From positions 77,440,574 through 77,504,573 of the forward strand of contig CM055899.1 in assembly GCA_029582155.1 (NCBI GenBank): DNA of 64,000 nucleotides, written 5' to 3'. Positions 3,259 to 45,477 of this stretch are shown in pieces. Each line of letters begins with the position of its first letter. Positions within the stretch are counted from its first letter, which is position 1. The notes beneath the pieces were generated by a model. That model made no database searches. It saw only the letters and a program-made list of their open reading frames with translations, and had not been told where the DNA came from. Both the position numbers and the translations under genes were made by a program. The stretch is from Panopea generosa (lineage: Eukaryota; Mollusca; Bivalvia; Adapedonta; Hiatellidae).

Positions 3259-3350
3259 ATATTTCAAACTTTCAATTTGTGTTGTTTAGACTGATGCTTT
3301 CACATGCCATATTACCCTGAGCATTGATTTTAAACCTAAAATAAACCCAC

Positions 3351-3597
3351 CTTGCGTTATCCATATAACGAACGATGAAAGCGGCAACATCATCGTTTCG
3401 CTCCTTCAAAGCAACCTCCAGCGGTGTTTCTCCCGCGTCATTCTTTGCCAGCGCAGTAAAATCGTGATCAAGCAGTTTTTCCGTCACGTAGAAAAGGTTG
3501 TTTTTAGCAGCAAGATGCAGCGGTGTATTTCCATCCTCGTCTACAAGTTTATTGAAATTAATTTCTCCGTCAGCATACGCTAAGAATGATGTCACTG
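3351..3597 (-). CDS. Ankyrin-repeat exon
   Basis: Internal exon of the minus-strand gene. The reading frame gives a short linker (TSFLAYADGEINFNKL), then an ankyrin repeat with the hallmark EDGNTPLHLAAKNN and a second repeat with AGETPLEVALKERNDD, followed by IVRYMD. The TPLH and TPLE tetrapeptides at the start of the first helix are diagnostic of the fold. The donor is strong (CAAG|GTGGGT on the minus strand). The acceptor is a tandem AAGCAG, so the exon can begin at 3597 or 3594; both keep the frame after the 40 bp exon upstream, differing by one codon. An apparent start further out at 3607 is not used in the model, because splicing there would meet a stop. The exon ends in phase 2. The ankyrin assignment is secure; the identity of the parent protein is unknown. 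Confidence 0.85.
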
Positions 3598-3671
3598 CTT
3601 GCATCACCTACACAAATAATACGGACAAATCATATAGTAATATAAACATTGGGCTAAACAGTCAACGTTAT

Positions 3672-3888
3672 GTGGAGCGCATGGTCCAGTGGTACAGCAT
3701 CAAAGCTATGATCGGAGGGTCGGGGTTTCGATCCTCCCCAAGGCTATGTGCTGTGTCCTGGAGCAAGACGACTTTTCTGCATATGTATAGTACTGGTTCT
3801 ACACAGTAACACTTCGAGCGTGATTTGAATCAGGTATAAAACTTGTTTCAAAATTGAAGTAACGTTAATTAATTTACTAAACAGTTAA
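3672..3888 (+). mobile_element. tRNA-derived SINE, family A, copy 1
   Basis: Starts TGGAGCGCATGGTCCAGTGG (A-box region), then B box GGTTTCGATCC, then the family tail GTCCTGGAGCAAGACG, CATATGTATAGTACTGG and an A-rich TTTACTAAACAGTTA end. Shares head, body and tail with the copies at 34.8 and 59.8 kb. It lies in the intron next to the ankyrin exon. Confidence 0.85.
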
Positions 3889-3954
3889 CGGTACAAGAAA
3901 ATCAAATCAATAGTTAAATGCTAATGTGGAAATTTTAAGTTCTGGAATTTCTCA

Positions 3955-6900
3955 GTTCCGAGGGTGACTTCCTTGTGTATTAATTACAGCGGTGCATCGT
4001 CTGTGCATCTAACTGATGAGTTTCTGAGCTGCATTACGTCTCGGCATATTAACAGCCTAGAAATGTTTATTGTGACCTCCTTGTAGATTCATTACAGCGG
4101 TGCATCGTCTGTGAATCGAATTGATGAACTTCAGTGATGAATTAAGTCTCGGCTTAATAACGGCCTAGAAATGTTTACTGTGACATCATTCTGCATTCAT
4201 TACAGCTATGCATCGTCTTAGCATCGAATTGATGAGGTTCTCAGCTGCATTAAGTCTCGGCATAAAAACAGCCTAGAAATGTTTATTGTGACATCCTTGT
4301 GCATTCATTACAGCGGTGCATCGATTGTGCATCGAACTGATGAGGTTCTGAGCTGCATTAAGTCTCGGCATAATAACAGCCTAGAAATGTTTATTGTGAC
4401 CTCCTTGTGTATTCATTACAGCGGTGCATCGTCTGTGCATCGAATGAATGAGGTTCTGAGCTGCATTAAGTCTCGGCATAATAACAGCCTAGAAATGTTT
4501 ATTGTGACACTCTTCTGCATTCATTACAGTGGTACATCGTCTGTGCATTAAATAGATGAGGTTATGAGCTGCATTAAGTCTCGGCATAATAACAGCCTAG
4601 AAATGTTTATTGTCACCGCATTGTGCATTCATTACAGCGGTGTATCGTCTTAGCATCGAATTGATGAGGATCTCAGCTGCATTAAGTCTCGGCATAAAAA
4701 CAGCCTAGAAATGTTTATTGTGACATCCTTGTGCATTCATTACAGCGGTGCATCGTCTGTGCATCGAATTAATGAGGTTCTGAGCTGTATTAAGTCTCTG
4801 CATAATAACAGCCTAGAAATGTTTATTGTGACACCCTTCTGCATTCATTACAGTGGTACATCGTATGTGCATTACATAGATGAGGTTATGAGCTGCATTA
4901 AGTCTCGGCATAATAACAGACAAGAAATGTTTATTGTCACCGCATTGTGCATTCATTACAGCGGTGTATCGTCTGTGCATCAAATTGATGAGATTCTGAG
5001 CTGCATTTAGTTTCGGCATAATAACAACCTAGAAATGTTTATTGTGACCTCCTTATGCATTCATTACAGCGGTGCATCGTCTGTGCATCGAATGAATGAG
5101 GTTCTGAGCTGCATTAAGTCTCGGCATAATAACAACCTAGAAATGTTTATTGTCACCTCCTTGTGCATTCATTACAGCGGTGCATCGTTTGTGCATCGAA
5201 TTGATGAGGTTCTGAACTGCATTTAGTTTCGGCATAATAACAGACAAGAAATGTTTATTGTGACCTCCTTGTGCATTCATTACAGCGGTACATCGTCTGT
5301 GCATCGAATTGATGAGATTCTGAACTGCATTTAGTTTCGGCATAATAACAGACTAGAAATGTTTATTGTGACCTCCTTGTGCATTCATTACAGCGGTACA
5401 TCGTATGTGCATCGAATTGATGAGGTTCTGAGCTGCATTAAGTCTCGGCATAATAACAGCCTAGAAATGTTTATTGTCACCGCATTGTGCATTCATTACA
5501 GCAGTGTATCGTCTGTGCATCGAATTGATGAGGTTCTGAGCTGAATTAAGTCTCGCATTAATAACAGCCTAGGAATGTTTATTGTGACCGCATTGTGCAT
5601 TCATTACAGCAGTGTATCGTCTGTGCATCGAATTGATGAGGTTCTGAGCTGCATTAAGTCTCGGCATAATAACAACCTAGAAATGTTTATTGTGACCTCC
5701 TTGTGCATTCATTACAGCGGTGCATCGTCTGTGCATCGGATTGATGAAGTTCTAAGCTGCATTAAGTTTCGGCATAATAATAGCCTAGAAATGTTTATTG
5801 TGACCTCCTTGTGCATTCATTACAGCGGTGCATAGTCTGTGCATCGAATTGATGAGTTTCTTAGCTGCATTAAGTCTCGGCATAATAACAGCCTAGAATG
5901 TTTATTGTCACCTACTTGTGTATTCATTACAGCAGTACATCGTCTGTGCATCGAATGAATGAGGTTCTGAGCTGCATTAAGTCTCGGCATAATAACAACC
6001 TAGAAATGATTATTGTCACCTCCTTGTGCATTCATTACAGCGGTGCATCGTCTGTGCATCGAATTGATGAGGTTCTGAGCTGCATTAAGTCTCGGCATAA
6101 CAACAGCCTAGAAATGTTTATTGTGACCTCCTTGTGCATTCATTATAGCGGTGCATCGTCTGTGCATCGAATTGATGAGGTTCTGAACTGCATTAAGTCT
6201 CGGCATAACAACAGCCTAGAAATGTTTATTATGACTGCATTGTGCATTCATTACAGCGGTGCATCGTCTGTACATCGAATTGATGAGGTTCTGAGCTGCA
6301 TTAAGTCTCGGCATAATAACAACCTAGAAATGTTTATTGTGACCTCCTTGTGCATTCATTATAGCGGTGCATCGTCTGTGCATCGAATTGATGAGGTTCT
6401 GAACTGCATTAAGTCTCGGCATAACAACAGCCTAGAAATGTTTATTATGACTGCATTGTGCATTCATTACAGCGGTGCATCGTCTTTGCATCGAATTGAT
6501 GAGGTTTGGAGCTGTCTTAAGTCTCGGCATAATTATAACCTAGAAATGTTTATTGTGACCGCATTGTGCATTCATTACAGCGGTGCATCGTCTGTTCATC
6601 GAATTGAAGAGTTTCTTAGCTGTATTAAGTCTCGGCATAATAACAGCCTATAAATGTTTATTGTGATCTCCTTCTGCATTCATTGCAGCGGTACATCGTA
6701 TGTGCATCGAATTGATGAGGTTCTGAGCTGCATTAAGTCTCGGCATAATAATAGCCTAGAATGTTTATTGTCACCTCCTTGTGTATTCATTACAGCTGTG
6801 CATCGTCTGTGCATCGAATGAATGAGGTTCTGAGCTGCATTAAGTCTCGCCAAAATAACAACCTAGAAATGTTTATTGTGACCTCCTTGTGCATTCATTA

Positions 6901-9900
6901 CAGCGGTGCATCGTCTGTGCATCGAATTGATGAGGTTCTGAGCTGCATTAAGTCTCGGCATAATAACAGCCTAGAAATGTTTATTATGACCGCATTGTGC
7001 ATTCATTACAGCAGTGTATCGTCTGTGCATCGAATTGATGAGGTTCTGAGCTGAATTAAGTCTCGGCATTAATAACAGCCTAGGAATGTTTATTGTGACC
7101 GCATTGTGCATTCATTACAGCAGTGTATCGTCTGTGCATCGAATTGATGAGGTTCTGAGCTGAATTAAGTCTCGGCATAATAACAACCTAGAAATGTTTA
7201 TTGTGACCTCCTTGTGCATTCATTACAGCGGTGCATCGTCTGTGCATCGGATTGATGAAGTTCTAAGCTGCATTAAGTTTCGGCATAATAACAGCCTAGA
7301 AATGTTTATTGTGACCTCCTTGTGCATTCATTACAGCGGTGCATAGTCTGTGCATCGAATTGATGAGTTTCTTAGCTGCATTAAGACTCGGCATAATAAC
7401 AGCCTAGAATGTTTATTGTCACCTACTTGTGTATTCATTACAGCAGTACATCGTCTGTGCATCGAATGAATGAGGTTCTGAGCTGCATTAAGTCTCGGCA
7501 TAATAACAGCCTAGAAATGATTATTGTCACCTCCTTGTGCATTCATTACAGCGGTGCATCGTCTGTGCATCGAATTGATGAGGTTCTGAGCTGCATTAAG
7601 TCTCGGCATAACAACAGCCTAGAAATGTTTATTGTGACCTCCTTGTGCATTCATTATAGCGGTGCATCGTCTGTGCATCGAATTGATGAGGTTCTGAACT
7701 GCATTAAGTCTCGGCATAACAACAGCCTAGAAATGTTTATTATGACTGCATTGTGCATTCATTACAGCGGTGCATCGTCTTTGCATCGAATTGATGAGGT
7801 TCGGAGCTGTCTTAAGTCTCGGCATAATTATAACCTAGAAATGTTTATTGTGACCGCATTGTGCATTCATTACAGCGGTGCATCGTCTGTTCATCGAATT
7901 GAAGAGTTTCTAAGCTGTATTAAGTCTCGGCATAATAACAGCCTATAAATGTTTATTGTGATCTCCTTCTGCATTCATTGCAGCGGTACATCGTCTGTGC
8001 ATCGAATTGATGAGGTTCTGAGCTGCATTAAGTCTCGGCATAATAATAGCCTAGAATGTTTATTGTCACCTCCTTGTGTATTCATTACAGCGGTGCATCG
8101 TCTGTGCATCGAATGAATGAGGTTCTGAGCTGCATTAAGTCTCGCCAAAATAACAACCTAGAAATGTTTATTGTGACCTCCTTGTGCATTCATTACAGCG
8201 GTGCATCGTCTGTGCATCGAATTGATGAGGTTCTGACCTGCATTAAGTTTCGGCATAACAACAGCCTAGAAATGTTTATTACATTGTGCATTCATTACAG
8301 CGGTGCATCGTGTGTGCATCGAATTGATGTGGTTCTAAGCTGCATTAAGTCTCGGCATAATAACAGCCTAGAAATGTTTATTGTGACCTCCTTGTGCATT
8401 CATTACAGCGGTGTATCGTCTGTGCATCGAATTGATGAGTTTCTTAGCTGCGTAAAGTCTCGGCATAATAACAGCCTAGAAATGTTTATTGTGACCTCCC
8501 TGTGCATTCATTACAGCGGTGCATCGTCTGGTCATCGAATTGATGAGGTTCTGAGCTACATTTAGTTTCGGCATAATAACAGCCTAGAAATATGTATTGT
8601 GACCTCCTTGTGCATTCATTACAGCGGTGCATCGTCTCTGCATCGAATTGATGAGGTTCTGAGCTACATTAAGTCTCGGCATAATAACAGCCTAGAATCT
8701 GCATCGTCTGTGAATCGAATTGATAAGGTTCGGAGCTGTCTTAAGTCTCGACATAATATTAACCTAGCAATGTTTTTTGTGTGATCTCTTTGTGTATTCA
8801 TTACAGCAATGGATCGTCTGTGCATCGAATTGATGAGGTTCTGAGCTGTATTAAGTCTCGGCATAATAACAACTAGAAATGTTTATAGTGACCTTTTAGT
8901 GCATTCATTACAACGGTGCATCGTCTGTGCATAGATTTGTTGAGGTTCTGAGCTGCATTTAGTCTCGGCCTAATAACAGCCAAGAAATGTTTATTGTGAC
9001 TTCCTTGTGCATTTATTACAGCGGTGCATCGTCTGTGCATCGAATTGATGAAGTTCTGAGCTGCATTAAGTTGGCATAATAACAACCTAGAAATGTTTAT
9101 TTTGATCTCCTTGTGCATTAATTACAGCGGTAAATCGTCTATGCATCGATTTGTTGAGGTTCTGTGCTGCATTTAGTCTGTGCATAATAACAGCTAAGAA
9201 ATGTTTTTTGTGTGACCTCCTTGTGCATTCATTACAGCACTGCATCGTCTGTGCATCGAATTGAGAGGTTTTGAGCTGCATTAAGTCTCGGCATAATAAC
9301 AACCTAGAAGTGTTTACTGTGACCTCTTTGTGCATTCATTACAGCGGTGCATCGTCTGTGCATCGAATTGATGAAGTTCTAAGCTGCATTAAGTGTCGGC
9401 ATAATAACAGCCTTAAAATGTTTATCGTGACCTCCTTGTGCATTCATTACAGCGGTGCATCGTCTGTGCATGGAATTGATGAGTTTCTTAGCTGTATTAA
9501 GTCTCGGCGTAATAACAGCCTAGAATGTTTATTGTCACCTCCTTGTGTATTCATTACAGCGGTGCATAGTCTGTGCATCGAATGAATGAGGTTCGGAGCT
9601 GTCTTAAGTCTCGACATAATATTAACCTAGCAATGTTTTTTGTGTGATCTCTTTGTGCATTCATTACAGCGGTGCATCGTCTGTGCATCGAATTGATGAG
9701 GTTCTGAACTGCATTAAGTCTCGGCATAACAACAGCCTAGAAATGTTTATTATGACTGCATTGTGCATTCATTACAGCGGTGCATCGTGTGTGCATCGAA
9801 TTGATGTGGTTCTAAGCTGCATTAAGTCTCGGCATAATAACAGCCTAGAAATGTTTATTGTGACCTCCTTGTGCATTCATTACAGCGGTACATCGTCTGT

Positions 9901-10395
9901 GCATCGAATTGATGAGTTTCTTAGCTGCATTAAGACTCGGCATAATAACAGCCTAGAATGTTTATTGTCACCTCCTTGTGTATTCATTACAGCGGTACAT
10001 CGTCTTTGCATCGGATGAATGAGGTTCTGAGCTGCATTTAGTCTCAGCATAATAACAACCAAGAAATGTTCATTGTGACCTCCTTGTGCATTCATTACAG
10101 CGGTGCATCGTCTGTGCATCGAATTGATGAGGTTCTCAGCTGCATTAAGTCTCGGCATAATAACAACCTAGAAATGTTTATTGTGACCTCCTTGTGCATT
10201 CATTACAGCGGTGCATCGACTGTGCATCGGATTGATGAGGTTCTGAGCTGCATTAAGTATCGGCATAATAACAACCTAGAAATATTTATTGTGACCTCCT
10301 TGTGTATTCATTACAGCGGTGCATCGTCTGTGCATCGAATGAATGAGGTTCTGAGCTGCATTTAGTCTCGGCATAATAACAGCTTTGAAAAGTTT
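3955..10395 (+). repeat. 108 bp minisatellite array, about 60 units
   Basis: Unit of 108 bp containing CATTCATTACAGCGGTGCAT and AAGTCTCGGCATAATAACAG. It encodes no stop in one plus frame (36-residue repeat beginning MFIVTSLCIHYSGASSVHR), so frames up to 251 residues open and close as units mutate. Nonsense changes, one-base indels and a unit shortened at 8690 break the frame often, and the array lies in an intron of the minus-strand gene model. A block of about 14 units is duplicated inside the array. The array ends abruptly at about 10.39 kb. Confidence 0.95.
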
Positions 10396-10399
10396 ATTG

Positions 10400-10820
10400 T
10401 ACCTTATGTTTTCAGGCTACAGGTACAATAACTGTGTAATGCATCTACTGTTTTGCCGGTAGCACGTGCAAATCGATTAAACATCCTACCACGAGCGCAG
10501 AGATAAACAAACAGAAATTCGGAAAAGCGGATATAAAATCAGACATATTTCTCCATAATACTCACGACTAATATCCATCTTCATGTATATGTTTATTCAG
10601 GAATTATTCAGAGCTTTAAATTTACCAACGAAAGCATTGATTTAGAATGTAAATTTGGAAAGATAAAATTACCTCACCGTGCTCTCCACTAGCTAAGGTT
10701 GCAAGCAACTCTGTATACTGCAAAATAGAATAGTAAATCGTTTATTATCATCAGGAAATTATATTTATATATTAAGCTGATTTGTGAATACGCAATTTAA
10801 AGGAACAGTTCTTAAATCAT
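10400..10820. other. Unique spacer between two arrays
   Basis: Non-repetitive AT-rich island between the 108 bp and 54 bp arrays. Its only recognised content is the 40 bp exon listed separately. Confidence 0.6.
10678..10717 (-). CDS. 40 bp exon preceding the ankyrin exon
   Basis: Read on the minus strand this is a 40 bp exon with acceptor TATTTTGCAG and donor CACG|GTGAGG. Only one frame is open, giving YTELLATLASGEH plus one base, so it ends in phase 1. That matches the entry phase of the ankyrin exon. The peptide fits the amphipathic helix that often precedes a first ankyrin repeat. It sits in a 400 bp island of non-repetitive DNA between two large tandem arrays, which is where a functional exon would be expected to survive. 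Small size limits certainty. Confidence 0.6.
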
Positions 10821-13800
10821 ATTCAAGCTAAACTGTGCCTGTATGTTCATAATCAACCCAGTTTTTTGTTTGTCTTTAACCTACAACTGTGCCTGGGTGT
10901 TCATGTTCAACTCAGATCTTGTTTGTCTTGAAGCTACAACTGTGCCTGAATGTTCATAATAAACTCAGATCTTTGTTTGTTCTGAAGCTACAACTGTGCC
11001 TGCAGGTTCATACTAAACTCAGATCTTTGTTTGTCCTGAAGCTACAACTGTCTTTGTATGTTCATAATAAACCCAGTTCTTTGTTTGTCCTGAAGCTACA
11101 ACTGTCACTGTATGTTCATAATAAACCCAGTTCTTTGTTTGTCCTGAAGCTACAACAGTCACTGTATGTTCATACTTAACTCAGAGTTTTGTTTGTTCTG
11201 AAGCTACAACTGTGCCTGTATGTTCATACTAAACCCATTTCTTTGTATGTCCTGAAGCTACAACTGTCACTGTAAGTTCATAATAAAACCCAGATCTTTG
11301 TTTGTCTTTAAGCTACAACTGTCACTGTATGTTCATGATAAACCCAGTTCTTTGTTTGTCCTGAAGCTACAGCTGTGCCTGTATGTTCATACTAAACTCA
11401 GATCTTTGTTTGTCCTTAAGCTACAACTGTGTCTGTTTGTTCATAATAAACCCAGTTCTTTGTTTGTCCTTAAGCTACAACTGTGCCTGTATTATCATAC
11501 TAAACTCAGATCTTTGTTTGTCCTTAATCTACAACTGTCTCTGTATGTTCATAATAACCCCAGTTCTTTGTTTGTCCTGAAGCTACAACTGTGCCTGTAT
11601 GATCATACTAAACTCAGAGTTTTGTTTATCCTGAAGCTACAACTGTGACTGCATGATCATACTAAACTCAGATCTTTGTTTGTCATTACGCTTCAACTGT
11701 GCCTGCAGTTTCATACTCAACTCAGATCTTTGTTTGTCCTGAAGCTACAACTGTGCCTGCATGTTCATAATAAACCAAGATCATTGTTTGTCCTGAAGCT
11801 ACAACTGTGCCTGTATGATCATACTAAACTCAGATCTTTGTTTGTCCTGAAGCTACAACTGTCACTGTATGTTGTTACTAAACTCAGATCATTGTTTGTC
11901 CTGAAGCTACAACAGTGCCTGCATGTTCATACTAAACCCAGATCTTTGTTTGTCCTGAAGCTACAACTGTCACTGTATGTTCATACTAAACTCAGATCAT
12001 TGTTTGTCCTGAAGCTACAGCTGTGCCTGTATGATCATACTAAACCCAGTTCTTTGTTTGTCCTGAAGCTACAACTGTGCCTGTATGTTCATAATAAACT
12101 CAGTTCTTTGTTTGTCCTGAAGCTACATCTGTCACTGTATGTTCATAATAAACCCAGTTCTTTGTTTGTCCTGAAGCTACAACTGTCACTGTATGTTCAT
12201 AATAAACACAGTTCTTTGTTTGTCCTGAAGCTACAACTGTGCCTGTATGATCATGCTAAACCCAGTTCTTTGTTTGTCCTGAAGTTACAACTGTAACTGT
12301 CTGTTCATAATAAACCCAGTTCTTTGTTTGTCCTGAAGCTACAACTGTCACTGTATGTTCATAATAAACACAGTTCTTTGTTTGTCCTGAAGCTACAACT
12401 GTGCCTGTATGATCATGCTAAACCCAGTTCTTTGTTTGTCCTGAAGTTACAACTGTAACTGTCTGTTCATAATAAACCCAGTTCTTTGTTTGTCATGAAG
12501 CTACAACTGTCACTGTATGTTCATGATAAACCCAGTTCTTTGTTTGTCCTGAAGCTACAACTGTCACTGTATGTTCATACTGAACTCAGATCTTTGTTTG
12601 TCCTTAAGCTACAACTGTGTCTGTCTGTTTATAATAAACCCATTTCTTTGTTTGTCCTGAAGCTACAACTGTGCCTGTATGTTCATACTAAACTCAGATA
12701 TTTGTTTGTCCTTAAGCTACAACTGTGTCTGTATGTTCATAATATACCCAGTTCTTTCTTTGTCCTGAAGCTACAACTGTGCCAGTATTATCATACTAAA
12801 CTCAGATCTTTGTTTGTCCTTAAGCTACAACTGTCACTGTATGTTCATAATAAACCCAGTTCTTTCTTTGTCCTGAAGCTACAACTGTGCCTGTATGATC
12901 ATACTAAACTCAGAATATTGTTTGTCCTGAAGCTACAACTGTGACTGCATGATCATACTAATCTCAGATCTTTGTTTGTCCTTAAGTTTCAACTGTGCCT
13001 GCAGTTTCGTACTAAACTCAGATCTTTTTTTGTCATGAAGCTTCAACTTTGCCTGCAGTTTCATACTAAACTCAGATCTTTGTTTGTTCTGAAGCTACAA
13101 CTGTGCATGTATGTTCATACTAAACTCAGATCTTTGTTTGTCCTGAAACTACAACTGTGCCTGCAGTTTCATACTAAACTCAGATCTTTGTTTGTCCTGA
13201 AGCTTCAACTGTGCCTGCATGTTCATACTAAACTCAGATCTTTGTTTGTCCTGAAGCTTCAACTCTGCCTGCAGTTTCATACTAAACTCAGATCTTTGTT
13301 TGTCCTGAAGCTACAACTGTGCATGTATGTTCATACTAAACTCAGATCTTTGTTTGTCCTGAAGCTACAACTGTGCCTGCATGTTCATACCAAACCCAGA
13401 CCTTTGTTTGTCCTGAAGCTACAACTGTCACTGTATGTTCGTAATAAACCCAGTTCTTTGTTTGTCCTGAAGCTACAACTGTCACTGTATGTTCATAATA
13501 AACCCAGTTCTTTGTTTGTCCTGAAGCTACAACTGTCACTGTATGTTCATACTTAACTCAGAGTTTTGTTTGTCCTGAAGCTACAACTGTGCCTGTATGA
13601 TCATACTAAACTCATATCTTTGTTTGTCCTTAAGCTACAAACGTCACTGTATGTTCATAATAAACCCAGTTCTTTGTTTGTCCTGAAGCTACAACTGTGC
13701 CTGTATGTTCATAATAATCCCAGTTCTTTGTTTGTCCTGAAGCTGCAACTGTCACTGTATGTTCATACTTAACTCAGAGTTTTGTTTGTCCTTAAGCTAC

Positions 13801-16800: not shown

Positions 16801-16850
16801 ATACAACTGTGCCGGAATGTTCGTAAGTTTTTTTTTATCTCCTCTTAAGT
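10820..16850 (+). repeat. 54 bp minisatellite array (monomeric domain), about 110 units
   Basis: Unit of 54 bp with core TTGTTTGTCCTGAAGCTACA and AACTGTGCCTGTATGTTCAT. One plus frame reads an 18-residue hydrophobic repeat (SLFVLKLQLCLYVHTKLR) for up to 345 codons, explained by the period being a multiple of three. Segments are duplicated with an offset of 1772 bp (for example 13566 matches 15338, and 13940 matches 15712), showing recent block amplification. The units from about 14.8 and 16.5 kb are more diverged and resemble the neighbouring 104 bp domain. Confidence 0.95.
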
Positions 16851-24560: not shown

Positions 24561-24609
24561 TCTTTGTACTTAAGAAACTAAAGATGTTTTACTTCTCTTG
24601 GAAGTTGTC

Positions 24610-24733
24610 CGTCTTTCAATGCTGGTTCCTCTGACCATGGTGCTGCTGATCCTCCTGGCCATGTTGTTGCTGGTCCCCCTGGCCTTGTTGGGGCTGGTCC
24701 CCCTAACCATGGTGGTGCTGGTTCCCCTGGTAT
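24610..24733. other. GC-rich Gly/Pro-coding repeat, strand uncertain
   Basis: About 125 bp of markedly GC-rich sequence at the edge of the 104 bp array contains about four copies of a 24 bp unit (8 codons). On the plus strand one frame reads AGSSDHGAADPPGHVV then AGPPGLVGAGPPNHGGAGSP and meets GTATTT, a possible donor. On the minus strand another frame reads EPAPPWLGGPAPTRPGG and is preceded by a good acceptor (TCTTTCAAATACCAG). In the ankyrin-gene phase the minus strand stops quickly, so it is not an obvious exon of that gene. The hydrophobic plus-strand frame (Leu/Val/Met-rich) is an out-of-frame shadow. Confidence 0.35.
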
Positions 24734-24734
24734 T

Positions 24735-25230
24735 TGAAAGAAGAGATATAAAATCATATCCGTCTTACCAACTGTCTAAACTATCATACTGGCCAAGTCT
24801 AACAGCGAATTTTGCCTTAACATGATTCGTTAGGCAAATAATACACTATTCTACTCACTTAATGGTTTTAATTTAGATAAAATTGAGCTCTTCGTCCTCA
24901 AATAAAACTAGACTCCATATCAACTATAATTTTAAAAACGCCTTAAAAGGAGCATTGAATGTATGCCGTAAACTTGGTTTCCTACTTTACCACACAGTCA
25001 GTCTTATGTATGTCATAAGGGATCAATTACATTCGGACCACCCCGCCGATTAACCTAATTCTGATGAATGACGGAATTGCCCGAGTATGTACGATTGGGA
25101 TCATTTGTTCTTGTGCAGCACCAAAACTGCACATCAGTTGATGATAAGAACCAAATAGAATTCCATAGAACTAAAATGTCTAACCTATATTACTTAACTT
25201 TATCACAAAGTAAGTCTATGAGAAAGGCTA
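24735..25230. other. Unique AT-rich sequence
   Basis: No repeat or confident exon seen. An open frame beginning at 25068 (MTELPEYVRLGSF) has no splice or homology support that I can see and runs into the degenerate satellite that follows. Confidence 0.35.
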
Positions 25231-25234
25231 GCAA

Positions 25235-26160
25235 ATATGCCCATTGTGCAACTATGGACACAAATTGGAGACTTTTGTGCCAACAGTTTCCAAGAAATAG
25301 AGTTTAACACAAAAACACAAGCTTTTGTAGGTTTAGTTATGTATAAAAGGCAATGTCATCCAAACAATTCGGCATGTTTTGGGGTAGCACTACCGATAAG
25401 ACAATTACGGCCCAAGTGTTTTGGCCTTTGACCAAATAGTTTAAAAGAAATACGAATGTCGAGCTCACCAAATTTAATGCTTCATGGTTTTGATGTACTA
25501 TCCAGAACTATAGATGAAAGTTTGTAACTCAAATATAAACTCTGAGAAACGGAGTTAAACAGAAAAAAACTTAAACCTGTTTTAGGCTACGTTAATTAAT
25601 TATTCGTAGAGGTCGTGGCCATCTGAAAATAAAATCTGCATGGTTACTACCCATACACAGCTATGGACCATTTGGTGACTCAGAGAAACGCAAAATATGA
25701 TTTCTTGTAAGCCAAGTTAATATTTCGTAAAGGTGAAGGTAACATGTATCCGAAAAATGCCGCTTGGTACTATCCGCAGCACTGTTTTGGACCATGTGTG
25801 TTGGCTCATGGCCAAATTGTTTTTAAGAAAAGGGGCTATTTTAAACGCAAAAATTAAATATCGTCTAGGCTACGTTATTCATCAGTAGAAATACATGTAA
25901 ATGTCATTCGAGAGAGCAGTACTACCCATAACAGTAGACCGAATTTGACTAAAACGTTTTTGAGAAAGGGCGCTAACAATAAACGCAGAATATTAACATT
26001 GTGTAGGCCAAAGTTAGTCATGCTTTAAGGGCATAGCTTACCAAATAAAAATGCTGCATGGTTTTGAGCAAAAGCAAAAGTATTCAATAAACAACTATGG
26101 ACCAAAATTGGTGACTATGTTAAACAGTTTCTGAAATACAGCTCAACGCAAAACAAACAC
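25235..26160 (+). repeat. Degenerate satellite, about 150-160 bp, about six units
   Basis: The phrases CTATGGACCA...TTGGTGACT, GTTT(T/C)TGAGAAA, AAACGCAAAA, GTAGGCCAAGTTA and AAATGCCGCATGG recur in the same order along the stretch with many substitutions and indels. This indicates an old tandem array. The two overlapping open frames at 25.07-25.43 kb fall partly in it and are not credible genes. Confidence 0.6.
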
Positions 26161-26164
26161 TTAA

Positions 26165-26670
26165 CGTTAACACAGCCGCATACCTATATATTTTTCTTCG
26201 CAAATGCAAGAAAAAAATGTACAAGCAAAACTTTTATTTTAGAAGTTTAGAATGTGAAATTGGCGCAGGACAACGCACACTGATCGATTAACTATCTAAT
26301 ACCATATACTTATTGATGGAGGGCAGTCAAAAATTATTGGCAACGTACATGTAGCTGCACACAAGTTACGGCCATCGCCGCGGCTTTAAAAAGAAGGGTC
26401 GTTTATCGTCGTGACCTTTTGGCAGTACTACTTTTTTTTCAAGAGAACACAAAAACATGCATAATGTATAAATCACATATGTATATGTATGAATGAAAAC
26501 TGAGTAAGTCTTAAAGAATGTGGGTGATGGGTGGGGTATTAGTGTGGAATCCAACAGATCTGTAAATAGTGTGATTCTAAATATAACATGATACACTTTA
26601 ACGGACAATTCCATGAACAGTTGACAGCTTTCCCTCATAAAGACATCTACACCCTATTCATGGCATGGAA
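26165..26670. other. Unique sequence, nothing recognised
   Basis: No exon or element recognised. A minus-strand open frame at 26366-26638 (MRESCQLFMELSVKVYH) has no supporting signals. Confidence 0.35.
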
Positions 26671-26671
26671 C

Positions 26672-26994
26672 GTGATATACTGTTGTAACTGTATGGTGTA
26701 TAACGTTGCTTTCAACAATGTTTTCTGTCATATCGTGATAGATTCTACTTGAGACAATACTATATTAAGCGCTGGGGTGTCATACTGCAGACACATGGTG
26801 TGATACTTTACCCATTCATATTATACTGACACCTGGCCGACCAGATATAGAACTAACCTCTTTATGGTGAGAGCCAAGCGAGGAAGCTTCTTGTATCATT
26901 TTATCAAGAATTTGGTAAGACCCGATCGGGTATCGAACCCACGACCTACCGCATACGAAGTGGTCTCTTTACCACTACACCACCACTGCGGTAG
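26672..26994 (-). mobile_element. tRNA-derived SINE, family C, copy 1
   Basis: On the minus strand: ACCGCAGTGGTGGTGTAGTG (A box region), GGTCGTGGGTTCGATACC (B box), then AGAAGCTTCCTCGCTTGG, GGTCGGCCAGGTGTCAGTAT, ACCATGTGTCTGCAGTATGA and GTTGAAAGCAACGTTATACA. The same blocks occur in the same order in the plus-strand copy at 37.15 kb, including the 240 bp body beyond the tRNA head. Confidence 0.85.
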
Positions 26995-27478
26995 CGTGAT
27001 ATAAGCATGTTATGAAAAAAAAACAGATTTTAGATATCTTATATCGTATACCATTTCCATAAAATACACGGGGTTGTTGGTACATTGTAGGTGGACTGGG
27101 AATCGATTGCATCTGGTACATCGAATTGTTCTGTAATTAAAACGAGTAAAAAAATGTTATACATAGAAATGGTTTCACAACTCTTCTTCATATGTCTTGT
27201 TTCTTCTATAAATAGTATTTCTTTTACATTGAAGTGTGTTTTTATTGATATTTCATATAAATTTTAAAGTTCATAGTTGGTACCCAAAAATACGCACTTC
27301 AAAACGTATATTAAAGTTCTGTGAAGATTTTGAAGTAAAGCTTTTACAACTTGATTAGTGTGAACTGTTTATAATATAATCAATATTCTTTGTCCAATAT
27401 AACATATATTTATTCTTAGTAATTAAAATGAAACGTATTTTGAAATAAACAATGAAGGGAGGCAAAAAAATAACGAAC
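26995..27478. other. AT-rich sequence, nothing recognised
   Basis: Low-complexity A/T stretches only. Confidence 0.4.
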
Positions 27479-27650
27479 ACAGTACATTCATTCATTTCTA
27501 ACCATCTATCGCATTTCATGGTAGTTTAATCAGTATATAATAACAGTACATTCATTCATTTCTTACCATCTATCATATTTCATGGTAGTTTAATCAGTAT
27601 ATAATAACAGTGCATTCATTAGTTAGCATCGTCTATTAAATCTCGTGGTA
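27479..27650 (+). repeat. 68 bp tandem repeat, about 2.5 units
   Basis: ACAGTACATTCATTCATTTC through CATGGTAGTTTAATCAGTAT is present twice almost unchanged, followed by a partial third copy with TGCATTCATTAGTTAGCATC. Confidence 0.85.
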
Positions 27651-28360
27651 GCAAATACAACTCTGAATAGTTCCACGTTTTACAATATAGATATCGACGG
27701 ACAAATTTACTTTGCAAAAACACAGAATACATTTAACACAATTTAATTACATACGTTACACTTAAAAATACCGATTTCCAATACTTCGTCATAAACACAA
27801 TAAAAAAATCTCATAATACGTTCCCAGATTCCTTAGCCTGTATCCTAATAAACAACTCTGAATATTGCTGATATGAAATTAAATTCGCCACCTTCTAGTC
27901 TGAATATATATCAACACTTTATACAAAATTTTACTACTGTCGAAATATAGCTATCGGACATTCAAACAACTTCTAGCAAACCTAATATAAAATCTGCTTA
28001 CTCAGAATGCCGCATGTAATGTCAGTTTATGCAGAGGTCTCTGTCACATCGATCTCGCAATGATCGTATTTGCTAACAGACCCAGATTTAAGCTTATACT
28101 CGTTTATTTATGAAAGAAATCTACATAACACAGATTTATCTCAAGGAAATCATGCAATATAATTATAATCCGAAGTCATAAGACTATAAATGTGCAACAA
28201 CTATGATTAGTTTTACAATAATAAATCCCTTTATTTTTTCCTAAAATACTCATTACTTAACAGATTTTAATGAAAAACGTCAAAATGAGTTTTTCTTTAA
28301 TTTAAAAATGAATATATAAAATATCTTTAAAATGTGTTATCCGGGCCTCTCTATCTGGCA
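27651..28360. other. AT-rich sequence, nothing recognised
   Basis: No exon with paired splice sites and no repeat found. Confidence 0.4.
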
Positions 28361-28361
28361 A

Positions 28362-28938
28362 TAAGTTTAACAAACCTACTCTTCGTTACCGATATACGCC
28401 TATACACTATACAATGGCACTGGTATTCGGGCCACGTCAACAAACCTACTCTTCGTTACCGATATACGCCTATACAATATACAATGGCAGTGATATTCGG
28501 GCCACGTCAACAAACCTACTCTTCTTTACCGATATACGCCTGTACAATATACAACGGCACTGATATTCGGGCCACGTCAACAAACCTACTCTTCGTTACC
28601 GATATACGCCTATACAATATACAAAGTCACTGATGTTCAGGCCACGTCAACAAACCTACTCTTCTTTACCGATATACGCCTATACAATATACAACGGCAC
28701 TGATATTGAGGCCACGTCAACAAACCTACTCTTCATTACCGATATACGCCTTTACAATATACAACGGCACTGATATTCGGGCCACGTCAACAAACCTACT
28801 CTTTTTTACCGATATACGCCTATACAATATACAACGGCACTGATATTCGGGCCACGTCAACAAACCTACTCTTCTTTACCGATATACGCCTATACAATAT
28901 ACTGTGGTACTGATATTCAAGCCAAGTCAACAAACTTA
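28362..28938 (+). repeat. 70 bp minisatellite, about eight units
   Basis: GCCACGTCAACAAACCTACT recurs at 28431, 28501, 28571, 28641, 28711, 28781 and 28851, an exact 70 bp spacing. Units also share CCGATATACGCCTATACAAT. It ends about 50 bp from the exon at 28989-29049. Confidence 0.95.
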
Positions 28939-28988
28939 TTTTGTTACACTCTTCTAGCTAATGGCATTAAGAACAATATTTAGCTTAC

Positions 28989-29049
28989 CTCGGATATCCC
29001 AGTTTCCATCGTCATACTTCTTACTGCTTTTCTGTGTTTGCCAAAAAGT
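28989..29049 (-). CDS. 61 bp exon of the ankyrin-repeat gene
   Basis: Minus-strand exon with acceptor AATATTTTAG and donor CGAG|GTAAGC. Two frames are open. The phase-compatible one starts with one carried base and reads LFGKHRKAVRSMTMETGISE, ending in phase 0, which fits the start of the 40 bp exon at 10717. The other open frame starts TFWQTQKSSKKYDDGNWD and does not match the phase of its neighbours. The chosen peptide is basic with Ser/Thr residues. It lies just outside the 70 bp minisatellite at 28.36-28.94 kb. Function unknown. Confidence 0.55.
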
Positions 29050-29054
29050 CTAAA

Positions 29055-29489
29055 ATATTTTTTTTAAAAAGTTATATACATGAAAGTCAACATCATGCAT
29101 GATAGGAGTAATGCCAGTGTTTTCTCCTGGTATGTGAAATTGACACAAGTGTCTAACTTAACACCTCAGCCGGAGATTTTCTTTTTCATTTCGAATGTTT
29201 CACTTTCTCTAAATGGTTATTTAAACTCTCATTACATATAGTCTCTTTCTCTGACTCAAAATGTTCTCAGCCTTGCCTTCGCATCTCTTATTTATATGAC
29301 AGCAAGGACCAGTCTGTCATTACACATTGAATTTACACGCATATTTCAAATAGGAACTAATATTTTTCTCATTTTTGTTTGTTTGTTTTTCAACACATTT
29401 CCGGTTATATATGGCATATCCAGTTTTATTGGTGGAGGACGACTTCAGAGCTACCGTTCTTCGGCAAAATGTCTCACATAACGTTTTTT
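29055..29489. other. Unique sequence, nothing recognised
   Basis: AT-rich sequence upstream of the 61 bp exon. No other exon or element supported. Confidence 0.4.
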
Positions 29490-29581
29490 GAGCGAGTGCT
29501 ACTCGAACCTATGACCTTAGCGGTGAGAGGTAAATGATCTTTAGACGGCGCCTTAGATCACTTGGTCACGGAGGACTCCTT
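29490..29581 (-). mobile_element. tRNA-Ser/Leu-like SINE (family D), copy 2
   Basis: On the minus strand: GGAGTCCTCCGTGACCAAGT (A box TGACCAAGTGA), then GTCTAAAGATCATTTACCTC and B box CATAGGTTCGAGTAGC. The long region between the boxes fits a Ser/Leu tRNA with a variable arm. Shared with the copies at 0.4 and 61.4 kb. Confidence 0.6.
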
Positions 29582-29584
29582 ACT

Positions 29585-31210
29585 CATTTGTGACGGACAT
29601 GTGCATCATGGTCAATGAAGGTGAAGGTATAGCATTTTAGAAAGTTGAGTTGATGGAAATCATAAGTTGAGATTTTCCTTTACTGAAAAATCTCAAGTTC
29701 TCCAAATGATATACTTACTCATTAGTAAACATGCAAAATTACCAGCGTAATTAACATTGTAGAAGTTCAAAAATTTGAGTTGAGGAATATCTCAAGTTTT
29801 GATGTTGAGTGAACTGAGTGCCTGATTTTCTGACAGTTATGACTGTTCGAAGATCACGTGATATTATAATTACATACACAGAAGTGTTATTTTCATGATT
29901 TTTCACTAGGCGACAACATAATGTACCTTTTCACATCTTCTAGATATTATTTGAACAAACGCAAGTTTACGCTGCTTAAACGTTTAATGAATTAACCAGG
30001 TTTTGTCGTTCCCTCAGATATATATGTACTACACGTAAGAATTTTGAATGAATTTAGTAAAGTTGTACATTTCCACAGGCATAATTTTTTATACGTTTTA
30101 TAAATTTCAGGATAAAAACACACGGTTCTTGCGGCACCTGCACCTAGCATATTCCACTAACCGTGCTACAACAACGTTGCGAAAAAACGTACATAATGAC
30201 GTCGTCATTAATGCACACATTACATAGAGGTATTGTTATTATGTTTTCAATGTATTTTCCTATTTTTATGCGTTTTTGGAGCGGAGTAACCTTACAACAG
30301 ACAACTGGAATATCTTTGCTCCTTTTTGATTCAGACACATGGTCTATGTAGTGTCAGCACCAATAACATTAATGACAACGTATTTACCACTGCGCTACCA
30401 CAACAACAAAAAAAAACCAAAAACGCTGAGCGAACTAAGAGTGGTACAAGTCAGTTATTAGGTCCGAAAAGTTTTTATCAAACTCACTTTTAATTAGTTG
30501 ACCGATCGACTCTTTTTGCTACGGATTTCGGAAGTAGTCCCTGTGGTGACGTATATAGGGAGCAGTACTTTTTACGAATCAGAATATCCATGTTAGTATG
30601 ATTTACGTTTTATATAATGATTCCGAAAATAACAGTGGTATTGGTGATTGGAAATTTATTAAAAAAAAATAAAGTGTGTTTATTGATTCAAAATTGGAAA
30701 AAAATATAAATAGAAATATTGACAGAAACAATATTGTTACAAATTAAAAATACAATTACAAATAAAAAAATAAATACATAAGTAAAAGGTAATTTTATAA
30801 TTATCAACCATATTACATAACAGTAATAACGTATTGCAACTTATTAATTATAAAATATCACAGAATGCAATTTAATACTACTGTTTTGGCAAAATCCAGT
30901 GTGAAAAAGTAAATCGATCACAATAAAATATTCTATAAAAAACCATGGTAACTTAAATGAAATGTATGGCAAATCTCAAAGAAGTATTAAATTAATGCAA
31001 CATTGGACATACATGATAGTGTGTAATAAAATTGGAATGCCCATAAAGCCCGAAGGCTTATTTCCAATGAGGTCTTGTTGGTTTTACAAGGCAGGCATAA
31101 TCTATCAAGTCTGCTTAAATGTTTTTTTCCATTCATACAACGGTGTGTAATATATTCTGGTTGACATTGGTGCTTTGAATCATCATTTTTTTGTTTGAAT
31201 CAATGTTTTA
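29585..31210. other. AT-rich sequence, mostly featureless
   Basis: A tRNA-A-box-like phrase (GTTGTGGTAGCGCAGTGGTA, minus strand) lies near 30385-30405 without a B box. Overlapping short frames on both strands at 30144-30351 have no support. Sequence from 30650 to 30960 is very A/T rich. Confidence 0.4.
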
Positions 31211-31217
31211 GACTTAC

Positions 31218-31290
31218 CCATCTTCGCTGCTATCGCTGTTATACTCGGTCGTTGTTATATCGTCATCTTTGTTGGCGGAACCATCTCCAG
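31218..31290 (-). CDS. 73 bp exon, acidic Ser/Asp-rich segment
   Basis: Minus-strand exon with a textbook acceptor (TATTTTGCAG) and donor (GATGG|GTAAGT). In the phase-compatible frame it encodes GDGSANKDDDITTTEYNSDS followed by SED, an acidic low-complexity stretch typical of disordered linkers. It enters with two carried bases, matching the phase-1 end of the exon at 35056, and ends in phase 2, matching the exon at 29049. No domain is recognisable. Both splice signals and both phases are right, so it is among the better supported exons here. Confidence 0.62.
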
Positions 31291-31655
31291 CTGCAAAATA
31301 CGAATATATTTATAGGGACAGTTGAAAAATGCCGTTGTTTATAGAGTGTATGGCTAAACATCAAGTTTGCTTGGAATATATTTGTTCTAATGTATGTTCC
31401 AATTGCAATCCTGATTTAATTTGTTGTCATTGTTCTGTTGAAATCATATACATCTATCTCTGTCTCACTTTAAAGATGCTCCTTTACCTTCGTTTAAGAG
31501 ATGTGTTGTCAATCCAGAAAACTATTTGTTTCTTTTGATTATTTGTGTATAAACTGGTAAAAGTCAGCTTATTAGTATTTTATCGTTTTTTTCAGTACTG
31601 ATGTACGCATGTGGTTAAACTCTTCGATATTGAAGGTTCTTAAGTGTAAGGTTAG
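31291..31655. other. Unique sequence upstream of the 73 bp exon
   Basis: Only the exon's acceptor and pyrimidine tract at 31291-31305 are recognised. Confidence 0.4.
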
Positions 31656-31658
31656 AGT

Positions 31659-32070
31659 TAGTCTTGATCATCTGCGACGCTTGCGTTTCTATACAGACAA
31701 ACGTCTTGACAAAGTGTATCAAAAAGAAAAAAACTTTGGATCTGTAAGTACATGTAAGCTATGACTGGCCGAAACGACACCTCTGCAACGGTTATGTTTT
31801 AACAAAATTTCAACATATTTATTCCGATGGAAGTCATTGCAGTTATCTTGTAAAAGATGTTTATCAAATAGAGAATATCTAATAAATATATATAGAAATA
31901 AACAACTTAACAATAGTCATTTGATATACTATGAAAATCTACAAGGAAATCCGATTTTTTGAACAACCAATCAAAAACTTTATTAGGTTTCCGTTATATT
32001 TTTATTCCCGGTCGGACGTTTTGAGACGTTTGTCTTTTAGAAAGGGAAGCGTCGCAGATGGTCAAGACTA
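31659..32070. mobile_element. MITE-like element with terminal inverted repeats, family II, copy 1
   Basis: Left end TAGTCTTGATCATCTGCGAC...GACAAACGTCTTGACAAA and right end GACGTTTGTCTTTTAGAAAG...GCGTCGCAGATGGTCAAGAC pair as terminal inverted repeats of about 50 bp. The interior (CTGCAACGGTTATG, ACCAATCAAAAACTTTATTA) matches the reverse complement of the element at 34.1-34.5 kb. About 410 bp, non-coding. Confidence 0.8.
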
Positions 32071-32074
32071 TTTT

Positions 32075-32540
32075 TTTGTTGGTTATTATAATTGTGGCTA
32101 TGGACCATTTTAAAACATATGGCTATTTTATTTAATAAAAAAGATCATGAAAACGTTCGCGAAAGAGTCTGTCTGGATCGGTCGTCTTCGCATAAGTGTA
32201 AAGTGTGACAATTATATCCGATGGTTTCTTATAAATTATTAAATAAAATAACATCTATTTTGTGCGTATATTGTGACGCTGTACTATCTATTACAGGTTT
32301 TAATTATGTTTCGTTAGTTAAAACAGGATATGAATGATTTACAGTTTCCGCATAATACATCACACGTGTATAATATGCTGTGACGAGTGTTGTTAGACTT
32401 GAGAACCTGCGGTGTATATCTTTATTTTTTTTCAAATAACTTGGAAAACCATACAAACAAATTATGTTTGATTATGTATTTCATTCTCTATATGAAATTC
32501 GTATAATTTAATATTTTAATTAAACACGGTGGTCTTATTG
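32075..32540. other. AT-rich sequence, nothing recognised
   Basis: No exon, element or array seen. Confidence 0.4.
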
Positions 32541-32544
32541 TGCA

Positions 32545-33690
32545 CTTTTTGTTCACATTTATTATTTGTATCCGCACGTTGGTCTCATATTTAGCTTCAC
32601 TGTTGTATCCACGCGTTGATTATTCACCATTTGTATCCATGCGGTGCTCTCGTATTACACTTCCATGTTAACTATTAACAATTTTTATCCACACGATGAT
32701 CTCGTATTACACTTCCCTGTTGACTATTAATTACCCACGCGGTGGTCATGTATAACACTTCCCTGTTGACTGTTTACTATCTGTATCCACGCGGTGGTTT
32801 CGTATTACACTTCCCTGTTAATTATTCACAATCTGTATCCACGTGGTGGTCTCGTATTACACTTTCCTGTTGACTAGTCACTATTTGTATCCACGCGGAG
32901 GTGTAGTATTACACTTCCATGTTAATTATTCACAATCTGTATCTACGCGTTGGTCTCGTATTACACTTCCATGTTAACTATTCACAATCTGTATCTACGC
33001 GTTGGTCTCGTATTACACTTCCATGTTTACTGTTAACTATTTGTATCCACGCGGTGGTCTCGTATTACACTTCCATTTTTACTATTCACTATCCGTATCC
33101 ACACGGTGATCTCAAATTACGCTTACCTGTTAACTATTCTCTATTTGTATCCTCGCGATGGTCTCGTATTACACTTCCCTGTTGTCTATTCACTATATAT
33201 ATCCACGCAGTGGTCTAATATTACGATTCCCTGTAACTATTCACTATATGTATCCACGTGTGGTGTCGTAATATTCTTCCGTGTTAACTATTCACTATCT
33301 GTATCCAAGCAGTGATCTCGTATTACATTTCCCTGTTTACTATTCACTATCCACGTGGTGGTCTCGTATTGCGCTTTCCTGTTGACTATTCACTATCAAC
33401 GCGGTGGTCTCGTATTACGCTTCACTGTTGACTTTTCACTATCCACGTGGTGGTCTCGTATTGCGCTTTCCTGTTGGCTATTCACTATCCACGCGGTGGT
33501 CTCGTATTACGCTTCACTGTTGCCTATTCACTATTTGTATCCACTTGGTGGTCTCGTATTACACTTCTGTGTTACCAATTTACAATGTGTGTCTATGCGG
33601 TGGTCTAGAATTACGATTCCGTTTTGACTATTCACTATCTGTATCCACGCGGTGGTGTAGTATTACACTTTCCTGTTGACTTTTCATTGT
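32545..33690 (+). repeat. About 52 bp minisatellite, roughly 22 units
   Basis: Units carry TGTATCCACGCGGTGGTCTC, GTATTACACTTCCCTGTTGA and CTATTCACTAT. Full units are near 52 bp; between 33.34 and 33.52 kb a shorter form lacking TTGTATC is used. Unit length varies, so open frames are short. Confidence 0.92.
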
Positions 33691-33694
33691 TTTC

Positions 33695-34095
33695 CCTCAT
33701 TCTTTGAAACTTTGGGTCATTTGTCCCCTATGTGATGAGACACATCCCGAGCGACTAACTAAAGCTGGTGTTCATTAAATGAATATGTTACTTTTTACAA
33801 TTTCTAGTTAAATAAACAGTTCATGCATAATTCACAAATCACCATTCGGTAGCAACTATATATTAAATGACAACTAGGTAAAATAGCATCCACGAGGCGA
33901 TCAATGAATGTATGACATTTCCAAAAAAACTGTGTTAAGACATGTATACGAACGCGTAGCACTGTATAGTACACTATCAGAGTAAAGTGTGTGCGATATT
34001 ATGTTATATTGATCCGGTCCATCAGCAGACAGACACTATGACTAACCGATAACCTTGGTCATATTCGATACTTGCTTTTCCGTTAATACAGGAAA
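33695..34095. other. Unique sequence, nothing recognised
   Basis: No exon or repeat found. Confidence 0.4.
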
Positions 34096-34097
34096 AA

Positions 34098-34480
34098 ATA
34101 GTCTTGCTCGTATTCTATACTTGCTTTTCTAAATGACAAACGTCTTGACAATTTCTTATTTAAAAACTATTGTAACGGAATTCTAATAAAGTTTCTGATT
34201 GGTAAATACATTCATACTACTATGGTGAGTTTCATAGTATTTTAAAACAATTTGGATTTTTTTATTTTAGAATCATGTTAAGATATGTTTATTATGCTCA
34301 TTTTTATTTATCTAAGCCAATATATCAGCAATGTCTTTCTTCGGAATTAAATAGATCTTATTTTTATTAACCGTTACAGCGGTGTGTTTGCCTCGGCAAC
34401 TTAAATATTACTTCTTGTTCCATTTATTCTGTCAAGACGCTTGTTTTTAAGAAAAGTAAGCGTCGAGGATGATCAAAATC
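34098..34480. mobile_element. MITE-like element, family II, copy 2 (opposite orientation)
   Basis: Left end GACAAACGTCTTGACAATTT and right end CTGTCAAGACGCTTGTTTTT...GTAAGCGTCGAGGATGATCA are inverted with respect to each other. Read on the minus strand, the interior (GCTGTAACGGTTAATAAA, CCAATCAGAAACTTTATTAG) follows the copy at 31.66 kb. About 380 bp, non-coding. Confidence 0.75.
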
Positions 34481-34797
34481 ACACAAAAAAGTTTAAAACC
34501 GAAAGTAATTATAAAATGCGGATGGCTAAGACAAACACGCCACCAGTATGGCTAATGTTTTAAATGTAAAGAAAATATTTCATTTTTATAAGGCATTGAA
34601 TATATTATCTTATACGTTAGACATATGTCACCTAAAACGATCACTGGTCTCGTATTTTAAGCTTAGTGTTTCATTAAAAGCACACCTATTTTGCCCTGTT
34701 TTCAGTATCCTTTTGCCAGTCACAAAATACCATTTTCAGGAGGAAGAAGTGATGTGAATTCAGGTTTTCAGGATGTTCTCAAGTCGACAATTCACAG

Positions 34798-34994
34798 TGG
34801 AGCGCGTGGTCCAGTGATAGAGTACTGAACCCATGATTGAAGGGTTGCGTGTTCGACACTCGGCAACTGCTATGTGTGGTGTCCTTGAGCAAGACACCTT
34901 TTCCGCATGTGCTTAGTACTGATTCTAACCAGGAAGACTTCAATCGTGATTTGCCTAAGTCGAAGTAAGATGAATACGTTTAAACTAAACTAAC
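34798..34994 (+). mobile_element. tRNA-derived SINE, family A, copy 2
   Basis: TGGAGCGCGTGGTCCAGTGA, B-box region GGTTGCGTGTTCGACAC, then GTCCTTGAGCAAGACACC, CGCATGTGCTTAGTACTG, AGGAAGACTTCAATCGTG and an A-rich end TAAACTAAACTAAC. Lies in the intron just downstream of the 82 bp exon. Confidence 0.88.
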
Positions 34995-35055
34995 AAATCT
35001 TTTTATTTACACAAACATTTAAGAAACTGTTCACTGCCAAGTCAATACTACTTAC

Positions 35056-35137
35056 CAGCGTTCGCCTGGTCGCCCCTATCCATGTAAGCGAAATGTGTTC
35101 TATAGATAGTAATGCAATTAATGGTTGTCTGGTGTTT
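35056..35137 (-). CDS. 82 bp exon of the ankyrin-repeat gene
   Basis: Minus-strand exon with acceptor ATAACATTTTTCAG and donor GCTG|GTAAGT. The frame reads KHQTTINCITIYRTHFAYMD then RGDQANA, entering in phase 0 and leaving in phase 1, which fits the exon at 31290. A second possible acceptor (CTATAG, giving a start at 35099) would shorten it to 44 bp in the same frame. The frame stays open further upstream, so the acceptor is inferred from the pyrimidine tract. No domain recognised. Confidence 0.5.
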
Positions 35138-35139
35138 CT

Positions 35140-40515: not shown

Positions 40516-40574
40516 CCCCCCTACCCCCCGCCCCCTACCCCCCCCCCCTACCCCCCCCCCCCCCCCCCCCCCCC
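40516..40574 (+). repeat. C-rich low-complexity tract
   Basis: Runs of C broken only by a few TA and G bases, ending with about 24 uninterrupted C. The minus strand has many G-runs of four or more, suited to G-quadruplex formation. Confidence 0.95.
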
Positions 40575-45455: not shown

Positions 45456-45477
45456 GTACTACAACAATCGGATAGAA

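Follow-up and report, generated by a model that had tools for sequence, protein, structure and literature searches.

A minisatellite-rich locus of the bivalve Panopea generosa, read as the 5' part of an ankyrin-repeat gene

The Drosophila Y fertility genes kl-3 and kl-5 carry megabase introns that are filled with satellite DNA and are transcribed (PMC6508621), and satellite-filled introns of Drosophila Y genes need co-transcriptional splicing (PMC11207136); papers are cited here by their PubMed Central (PMC) accessions. For tandem repeats with units of 1-50 bp, an older survey gave maximum intronic lengths of 682 bp in Daphnia, 3049 bp in Drosophila and 943 bp in Apis (PMC3152781), which, the survey omitting units above 50 bp, is no more than a hint that intronic arrays of kilobases are out of the ordinary. 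Here we describe a stretch of 64,000 nucleotides (nt) from the genome of the bivalve mollusc Panopea generosa (assembly GCA_029582155.1, contig CM055899.1, positions 77,440,574 to 77,504,573 of the forward strand), hereafter the window, to which all coordinates below refer. Its minus strand is best read as the 5' part of one ankyrin-repeat gene with introns filled by minisatellites, a reading that we consider likely.

A preliminary description of the locus had proposed five minus-strand exons at 35137-35056, 31290-31218, 29049-28989, 10717-10678 and 3597-3351, and these segments are bounded by AG and GT and form one open frame over all four junctions. That description is corrected below as to where the fourth junction lies, how much repeat there is in total and how far the gene extends on its 3' side, and with these corrections the gene model is probably correct. 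We favour one ankyrin-repeat gene because the strength and phase of the splice sites, a GC content above that of the 150 bp flanks in all seven exons of the corrected model, and an in-frame downstream continuation agree. The joined frame is open across all seven exons and gives a peptide of 192 residues. These small exons (45-257 nt) are scattered over about 35 kb, the longest introns consisting mostly of repeat arrays. Transcription and splicing of the gene are predicted from the sequence.

Exon 1 (82 nt, 35056-35137) ends at the donor gtaagt and possibly includes 5' untranslated region. A start codon at 35083-35081 opens the peptide MDRGDQANA..., and from this ATG onward the GC content is 0.64, against 0.33 in the flanks. 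It is the top-scoring candidate exon under an AT-tolerant acceptor matrix, the splice matrices used here being approximate frequencies; a generic matrix picks another acceptor, and the 5' border is therefore uncertain, at 35137 or 35199. Exon 2 (73 nt, 31218-31290) encodes an acidic linker peptide. Exon 3 (61 nt, 28989-29049) has a strong donor and a weak, A-rich acceptor, and would be 43 nt long, with the frame unchanged, if the acceptor at 29031 were used. Exon 4 (YTELLATLASGEHGE, 45 nt, 10673-10717) has an alternative donor at 10678, 5 nt earlier and likewise in frame, and exon 5 (257 nt, 3351-3607) carries the ankyrin repeats, its peptide matching Pfam Ank_2 with an E value of 9.8e-10. The fractions of same-length intron windows with equal or higher GC are 0.11, 0.055, 0.22, 0.074 and 0.02 for exons 1 to 5, respectively.

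Two of these borders concern the fourth junction, which is more likely to lie at 10673/3607 than at 10678/3597. Both versions keep the frame, the former in phase 0 (...ASGEHGEVMQAV...) and the latter reading ...ASGEHAV.... The preference is due mainly to the acceptor score, which is +2.6 at 3607 and -6.4 at 3597; the donor at 10678 scores 6.2 and that at 10673 scores 3.4, and Pfam cannot choose between the two versions (39.6 vs 40.4 bits for Ank_2).

The gene had been taken to end at 3351, but a probable exon 6 and the start of an exon 7 continue the frame, and the gene would then exit the window. For this continuation the non-array segments 41-1909 and 3221-3350 were searched after exon 5, which ends in phase 2. 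The strongest phase-fitting segment, at 892-817 (76 nt, peptide VRLLFKRVSSKARLNIQDYLNNDFE), leaves phase 0 and meets a segment that is open from 38 to the window edge, where a probable exon 7 start (1-38), with KAASAILDCCLE in the frame left by exon 6, is cut. Exon 6 is rated as only probable, and unproven, because a segment as good as 892-817 arose in 61 of 2000 shuffles. Another candidate for the link between exons 5 and 7, a 13-nt microexon (ANEP), was rejected because exon 6 was preferred, and pairing the exon 6 donor with the acceptor at 911 gave a higher score (8.1 vs 7.1) yet was out of phase. Matches to Retrotran_gag_4 over the exon 5/6 region (E 0.0057 and 0.00065) fell under the Pfam cut-off in both queries and were taken as chance.

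The ankyrin exon itself is real. Ank_2 scores 38.1 bits on the joined peptide (cut-off 27.3, E 2.4e-9) and 39.3 bits on exon 5 alone, and the PDB matches listed (best 60 of 362 and best 60 of 463) consist for the most part of ankyrins, designed ankyrin proteins and further proteins with ankyrin repeats, NOMPC among them, the best stretch in each case being the ankyrin part. Two to three repeats are visible in the window. A six-frame Pfam scan of most of the non-array sequence of the window gave no further domain at E 0.05, and Rfam gave no match in the window at the gathering score. Relatives of the ankyrin exon were sought among viral contigs (17 pattern matches, none confirmed) and in one prokaryote genome collection (167 matches, none confirmed), an outcome to be expected because the gene is probably animal. 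A structure prediction for exon 5 alone, made without an alignment, had a mean pLDDT (predicted local distance difference test) of 50.8 and was not used.

It had been anticipated that a protein search with the ankyrin exon would name the family. The search did identify ankyrin repeats, while a TRP-type channel is at present only a lead. The DEDGNTPLHLAA... stretch resembles the last ankyrins of TRPA1, with a BLASTP E value of 4e-8 in a one-sequence comparison and a global z score of 8.8 over about 100 residues. Ankyrins, however, resemble one another in general, and the part that follows them reaches a z score of 1.5 against TRPA1, a value attained by 229 of 3000 shuffles and thus not above chance. 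TRPA1 is also absent among the matches listed for the post-ankyrin region (60 of 73 from the PDB), and our prior expectation of a TRPA protein found no support in the formal comparison of that region. In scallop there are two TRPA genes together with other TRP families that have N-terminal ankyrins (PMC8539334), and 16 ankyrin repeats have been proposed for an annelid TRPA (PMC6451338), more than are seen in this window. The locus shares with TRPA-type channels, in which ankyrins precede the membrane part, the ankyrin stretch; it differs in showing two to three repeats and in that the window holds no membrane part. An ion-transport (six-helix) domain, if any, would fall past the left window edge.

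The introns of the model, all on the minus strand, differ widely in repeat content. The main arrays lie where they had been described. Intron 2 (31217-29050, 2168 bp) has none, with 0% tandem repeat, and two arrays share intron 3. Intron 1 (3765 bp, 28% tandem repeat) holds a 52 bp array of about 21 units at 32621-33686. In intron 3 (18271 bp), the main part is taken by a 54 bp minisatellite, also showing a 104 bp period, at 10825-24567 (about 261 units, mean identity 86%), and a 70 bp array of about 8 units with 96% identity (28369-28935) lies 53 bp from the exon 3 donor. Intron 4 (7065 bp) holds a 108 bp minisatellite of about 60 units, with a mean identity of 94% to the consensus, at 3964-10404. 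Introns 3 and 4 consist mostly of tandem repeat (80% and 91%), provided that the exon chain is right. Together these two introns measure 25.3 kb and tandem repeat accounts for 21.0 kb of them, where the preliminary description had given 'some 25 kb of tandem repeat'. Provided that exon 6 is correct, intron 5 (2458 bp, 53% tandem repeat) contains a 39/78 bp array (1910-3220, 34 units of 39 bp), and intron 6 (778 bp) is free of tandem repeat (0%). Within the 108 bp and 54 bp arrays, pairs of 300 bp windows with 299 matching positions occur 1511 bp and 1772 bp apart, respectively, and are read as recent internal duplications.

The exon chain was examined against chance by a blind search. Candidates were open-frame stretches of the minus strand, 30-200 nt long and bounded as AG...GT, in the non-array segments 33687-35300, 28936-32620, 24568-28368 and 10405-10824, and the best in-frame chain ending in phase 0 ahead of exon 5 was retained. 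In the first run a higher acceptor threshold barred exon 3, such that no real four-exon chain was possible, and the threshold was then lowered post hoc. The best four-exon chain, scoring 37.6, consists of exons 1-4, with exon 4 extending to 10673, and with the AT-tolerant matrix none of 500 order-2 Markov shuffles reached this score; the plus-strand control chain scored 25.6. The best five-exon chain scored 33.1, below the four-exon value, and was matched by 12 of 500 shuffles. When three settings were combined with shuffle orders 1 and 3 under the same matrix, none of 200 shuffles reached the real score in any of the six runs, and in the matrix-sensitivity runs the real-sequence controls stayed below the real score in every setting.

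Several results weigh against the model. With the generic matrix, 14 and 15, 8 and 11, and 6 and 6 of 200 shuffles matched the best real chain in the three settings. This matrix scores the exon 3 acceptor at 29049 at -2.1, under the thresholds of those sensitivity runs, and the site was hence barred there. The winning generic-matrix chain retains the same four donors, takes 29031 as the exon 3 acceptor (18 nt shorter, in the same frame) and, in three of four settings, replaces the exon 1 acceptor 35137 by 35199; over the four settings it was reached by 3-9 of 200 shuffles (1.5-4.5%). The chain with the acceptors of the preliminary description scores 26.4 under this matrix, a value reached by 5-20 of 200 shuffles. 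Moreover, the GC content of exons 6 and 7 is unremarkable, the fractions of equally GC-rich windows of the same length being 0.36 and 0.24, the N-terminal 69 residues match no Pfam family, and the sense strand of the 54 bp array is richer in acceptor-like sites than the Markov mean (62 vs 35.7), a possible obstacle to clean splicing, and poorer in donor-like ones (5 vs 16.5). The units of an array are mutual copies and such counts are not independent; for this reason, and because the 108 bp array is depleted of splice-like sites on both strands, we rejected them as a signal of selection.

Exon 5, with exons 6 and 7, might alone belong to a real gene, at least one of exons 1-4 being a chance splice-like segment, in which case the true upstream exons would lie elsewhere and the exon-intron map across the large arrays would be wrong. 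The shuffles that equal the best real chain under the generic matrix, the switching acceptors of exons 1 and 3 and the unmatched N-terminal residues are what such a situation could produce, and under one acceptor matrix 72% of AG sites equal or exceed the exon 3 acceptor in score. Against this, the blind search returns exons 1-4, their donors rank in the top 1.1% of GT sites and are the same four under the second acceptor matrix, and each of these exons exceeds its flanks in GC content. We consider a chance origin of any of exons 1-4 rather unlikely. The set of exons holds under either matrix, unlike the 5' borders of exons 1 and 3, and how strongly the statistics favour the chain depends on the matrix used.

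Two other explanations concern the arrays. That they code on the plus strand for long repetitive proteins would accord with stop-to-stop open reading frames of 254 and 347 codons, with unit lengths (54 and 108) that are divisible by three, and with a shortage of stop-creating changes in the 54 bp array, where plus frame 0 has 68 against 111 expected. This depletion is not specific to the open frame, however, because two minus frames of the same array that already carry stops in the consensus are more strongly depleted (27 vs 126 and 18 vs 76 expected), and the 108 bp array shows no depletion of stops in its open plus frame (20 vs 16 expected). Codon-position bias is not significant in the arrays (permutation p 0.49, 0.27 and 0.07 for the 108, 54 and 39 bp arrays), and, by an approximate splitting into units, units of 48-50 bp disrupt the frame among those of 54 bp; coding arrays are extremely improbable. 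Less remote, if still unlikely, is an origin in non-autonomous mobile elements such as Helentron-associated HINEs: elements of this kind would have inserted in the introns, as in oyster, and the arrays would be their central repeats or descend from these. HINE-type elements have tandem-repeat cores and occur in non-coding parts of some oyster genes (PMC7492417); here a perfect 11 bp hairpin (10394-10404/10421-10431) coincides with one end of the 108 bp array, and the 52 bp array is flanked by two diverged copies (64%) of a dispersed element with inverted repeats (31664-32076 and 34093-34476). Yet no other perfect hairpin of at least 10 bp was listed at the array ends scanned (the 1910 end lay outside the scan), the left and right flanks share no sequence in five of the six arrays compared (108, 54, 70, 39 and 51 bp), the copies near the 52 bp array, at a distance of 400-550 bp from it, have inverted ends of their own and thus look like small separate elements, and arrays of 60-261 units are far longer than those reported for the oyster elements.

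Returning to a single ankyrin-repeat gene with minisatellite-filled introns, we envisage that translation would begin at the start codon at 35083 and that an acidic N-terminal region of about 35 residues would lead into the ankyrin repeats and on past the left window edge. Its introns would have been colonised independently by different, unrelated minisatellites, which may have grown by unequal exchange or replication slippage up to 80% and 91% of introns 3 and 4. Transcription would run through the entire locus, and the normal spliceosome would excise the repeats, because the splice signals of every exon lie outside the arrays, in unique sequence; in introns 3 and 4 their distance to the nearest array is 53 to 356 bp. 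On this view the repeats are passive filler, their mode of growth and their lack of function being inferred, whereas the sequence itself shows the ankyrin exon, the in-frame exons, the arrays and the near-identical duplications inside them. A far more speculative proposal, which we hold to be very improbable, is that each long intron carries its own still-homogenising minisatellite, such that intron length varies among individuals, and that the 54 bp array, upstream of exon 4, acts through its approximately 62 sense acceptor-like sites as a decoy field of 3' splice sites controlling the inclusion of exon 4, an exon that may contribute the beginning of the first ankyrin repeat. The locus is compact and fully sequenced, with unique splice signals tens to hundreds of bases from minisatellites of 6-14 kb. 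It could be used to study how far an intron can be filled with repeat and whether splicing responds to array length, and it warns that automatic annotation easily misses short exons between arrays.

Other repeats lie in and around the predicted gene. The two copies of the approximately 400 bp element on either side of the 52 bp array in intron 1 (31659-32076 and 34093-34476) have ends that are inverted repeats of one another and resemble a small non-autonomous DNA transposon, and a dispersed, diverged repeat with a tRNA-like look occurs at 3668-3888, 34796-35022 and 59826-60025 (66-71% pairwise), two of its copies being near exons 5 and 1. An inverted pair of about 1 kb (38891-39917 and 44400-45447, 88.8% identical), the outer ends of which share TTTTAAAAATGTTTGGG, encloses array-rich sequence and may be a long terminal inverted repeat, or else the same mobile element present twice; the frames scanned there yield no Pfam domain at E 0.05. 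A C-rich tract of CCCCCCTACCCCC units lies at 40516-40574. A nested 51/154/307 bp array (45469-46165) is followed by a perfect (CTGT)17.5 microsatellite (46308-46377), an order which we take to recall bivalve pearl/Helentron-type elements. The region 53521-58640 is a very AT-rich repeat region of diverged 38-40 bp units, with a GC content of 15-17% over 54-58 kb. Further minisatellites at 50164-52458 (109 bp, 92% matches) and 61513-64000 (56/111 bp, running to the right edge) make the whole neighbourhood, beyond the ankyrin gene, minisatellite-rich.

Among the matches listed in literature searches, no title or abstract describes this arrangement, and the closest systems each share part of it. 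The central repeats of HINEs in Crassostrea gigas are likewise tandem arrays in non-coding parts of genes (PMC7492417), but their monomers are mainly 140-180 bp and form short arrays within a defined mobile element, whereas the arrays here are long, with one hairpin and no other such ends found. The CeRep25B minisatellites of C. elegans are intronic and have been proposed to bear on splicing; they consist of several copies of 24 bp palindromic units (PMC4039745), in contrast to the approximately 60 and 261 units that make up 80-91% of an intron here. Given this proposed link to splicing, the arrays could conceivably have a regulatory role. The Drosophila Y fertility genes are similar in having small coding exons and introns of mostly tandem repeat (PMC6508621, PMC11207136), and since far larger repeat-filled introns are known there (PMC6508621), the phenomenon is less strange than the preliminary description implied. 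They differ in their megabase introns, short simple repeats and location on the Y chromosome, where the Panopea locus has kilobases of several unrelated minisatellites of 39-108 bp and a transcription that is predicted. Most likely, the locus is a new and rather extreme member of an already known arrangement, with no new mechanism indicated.

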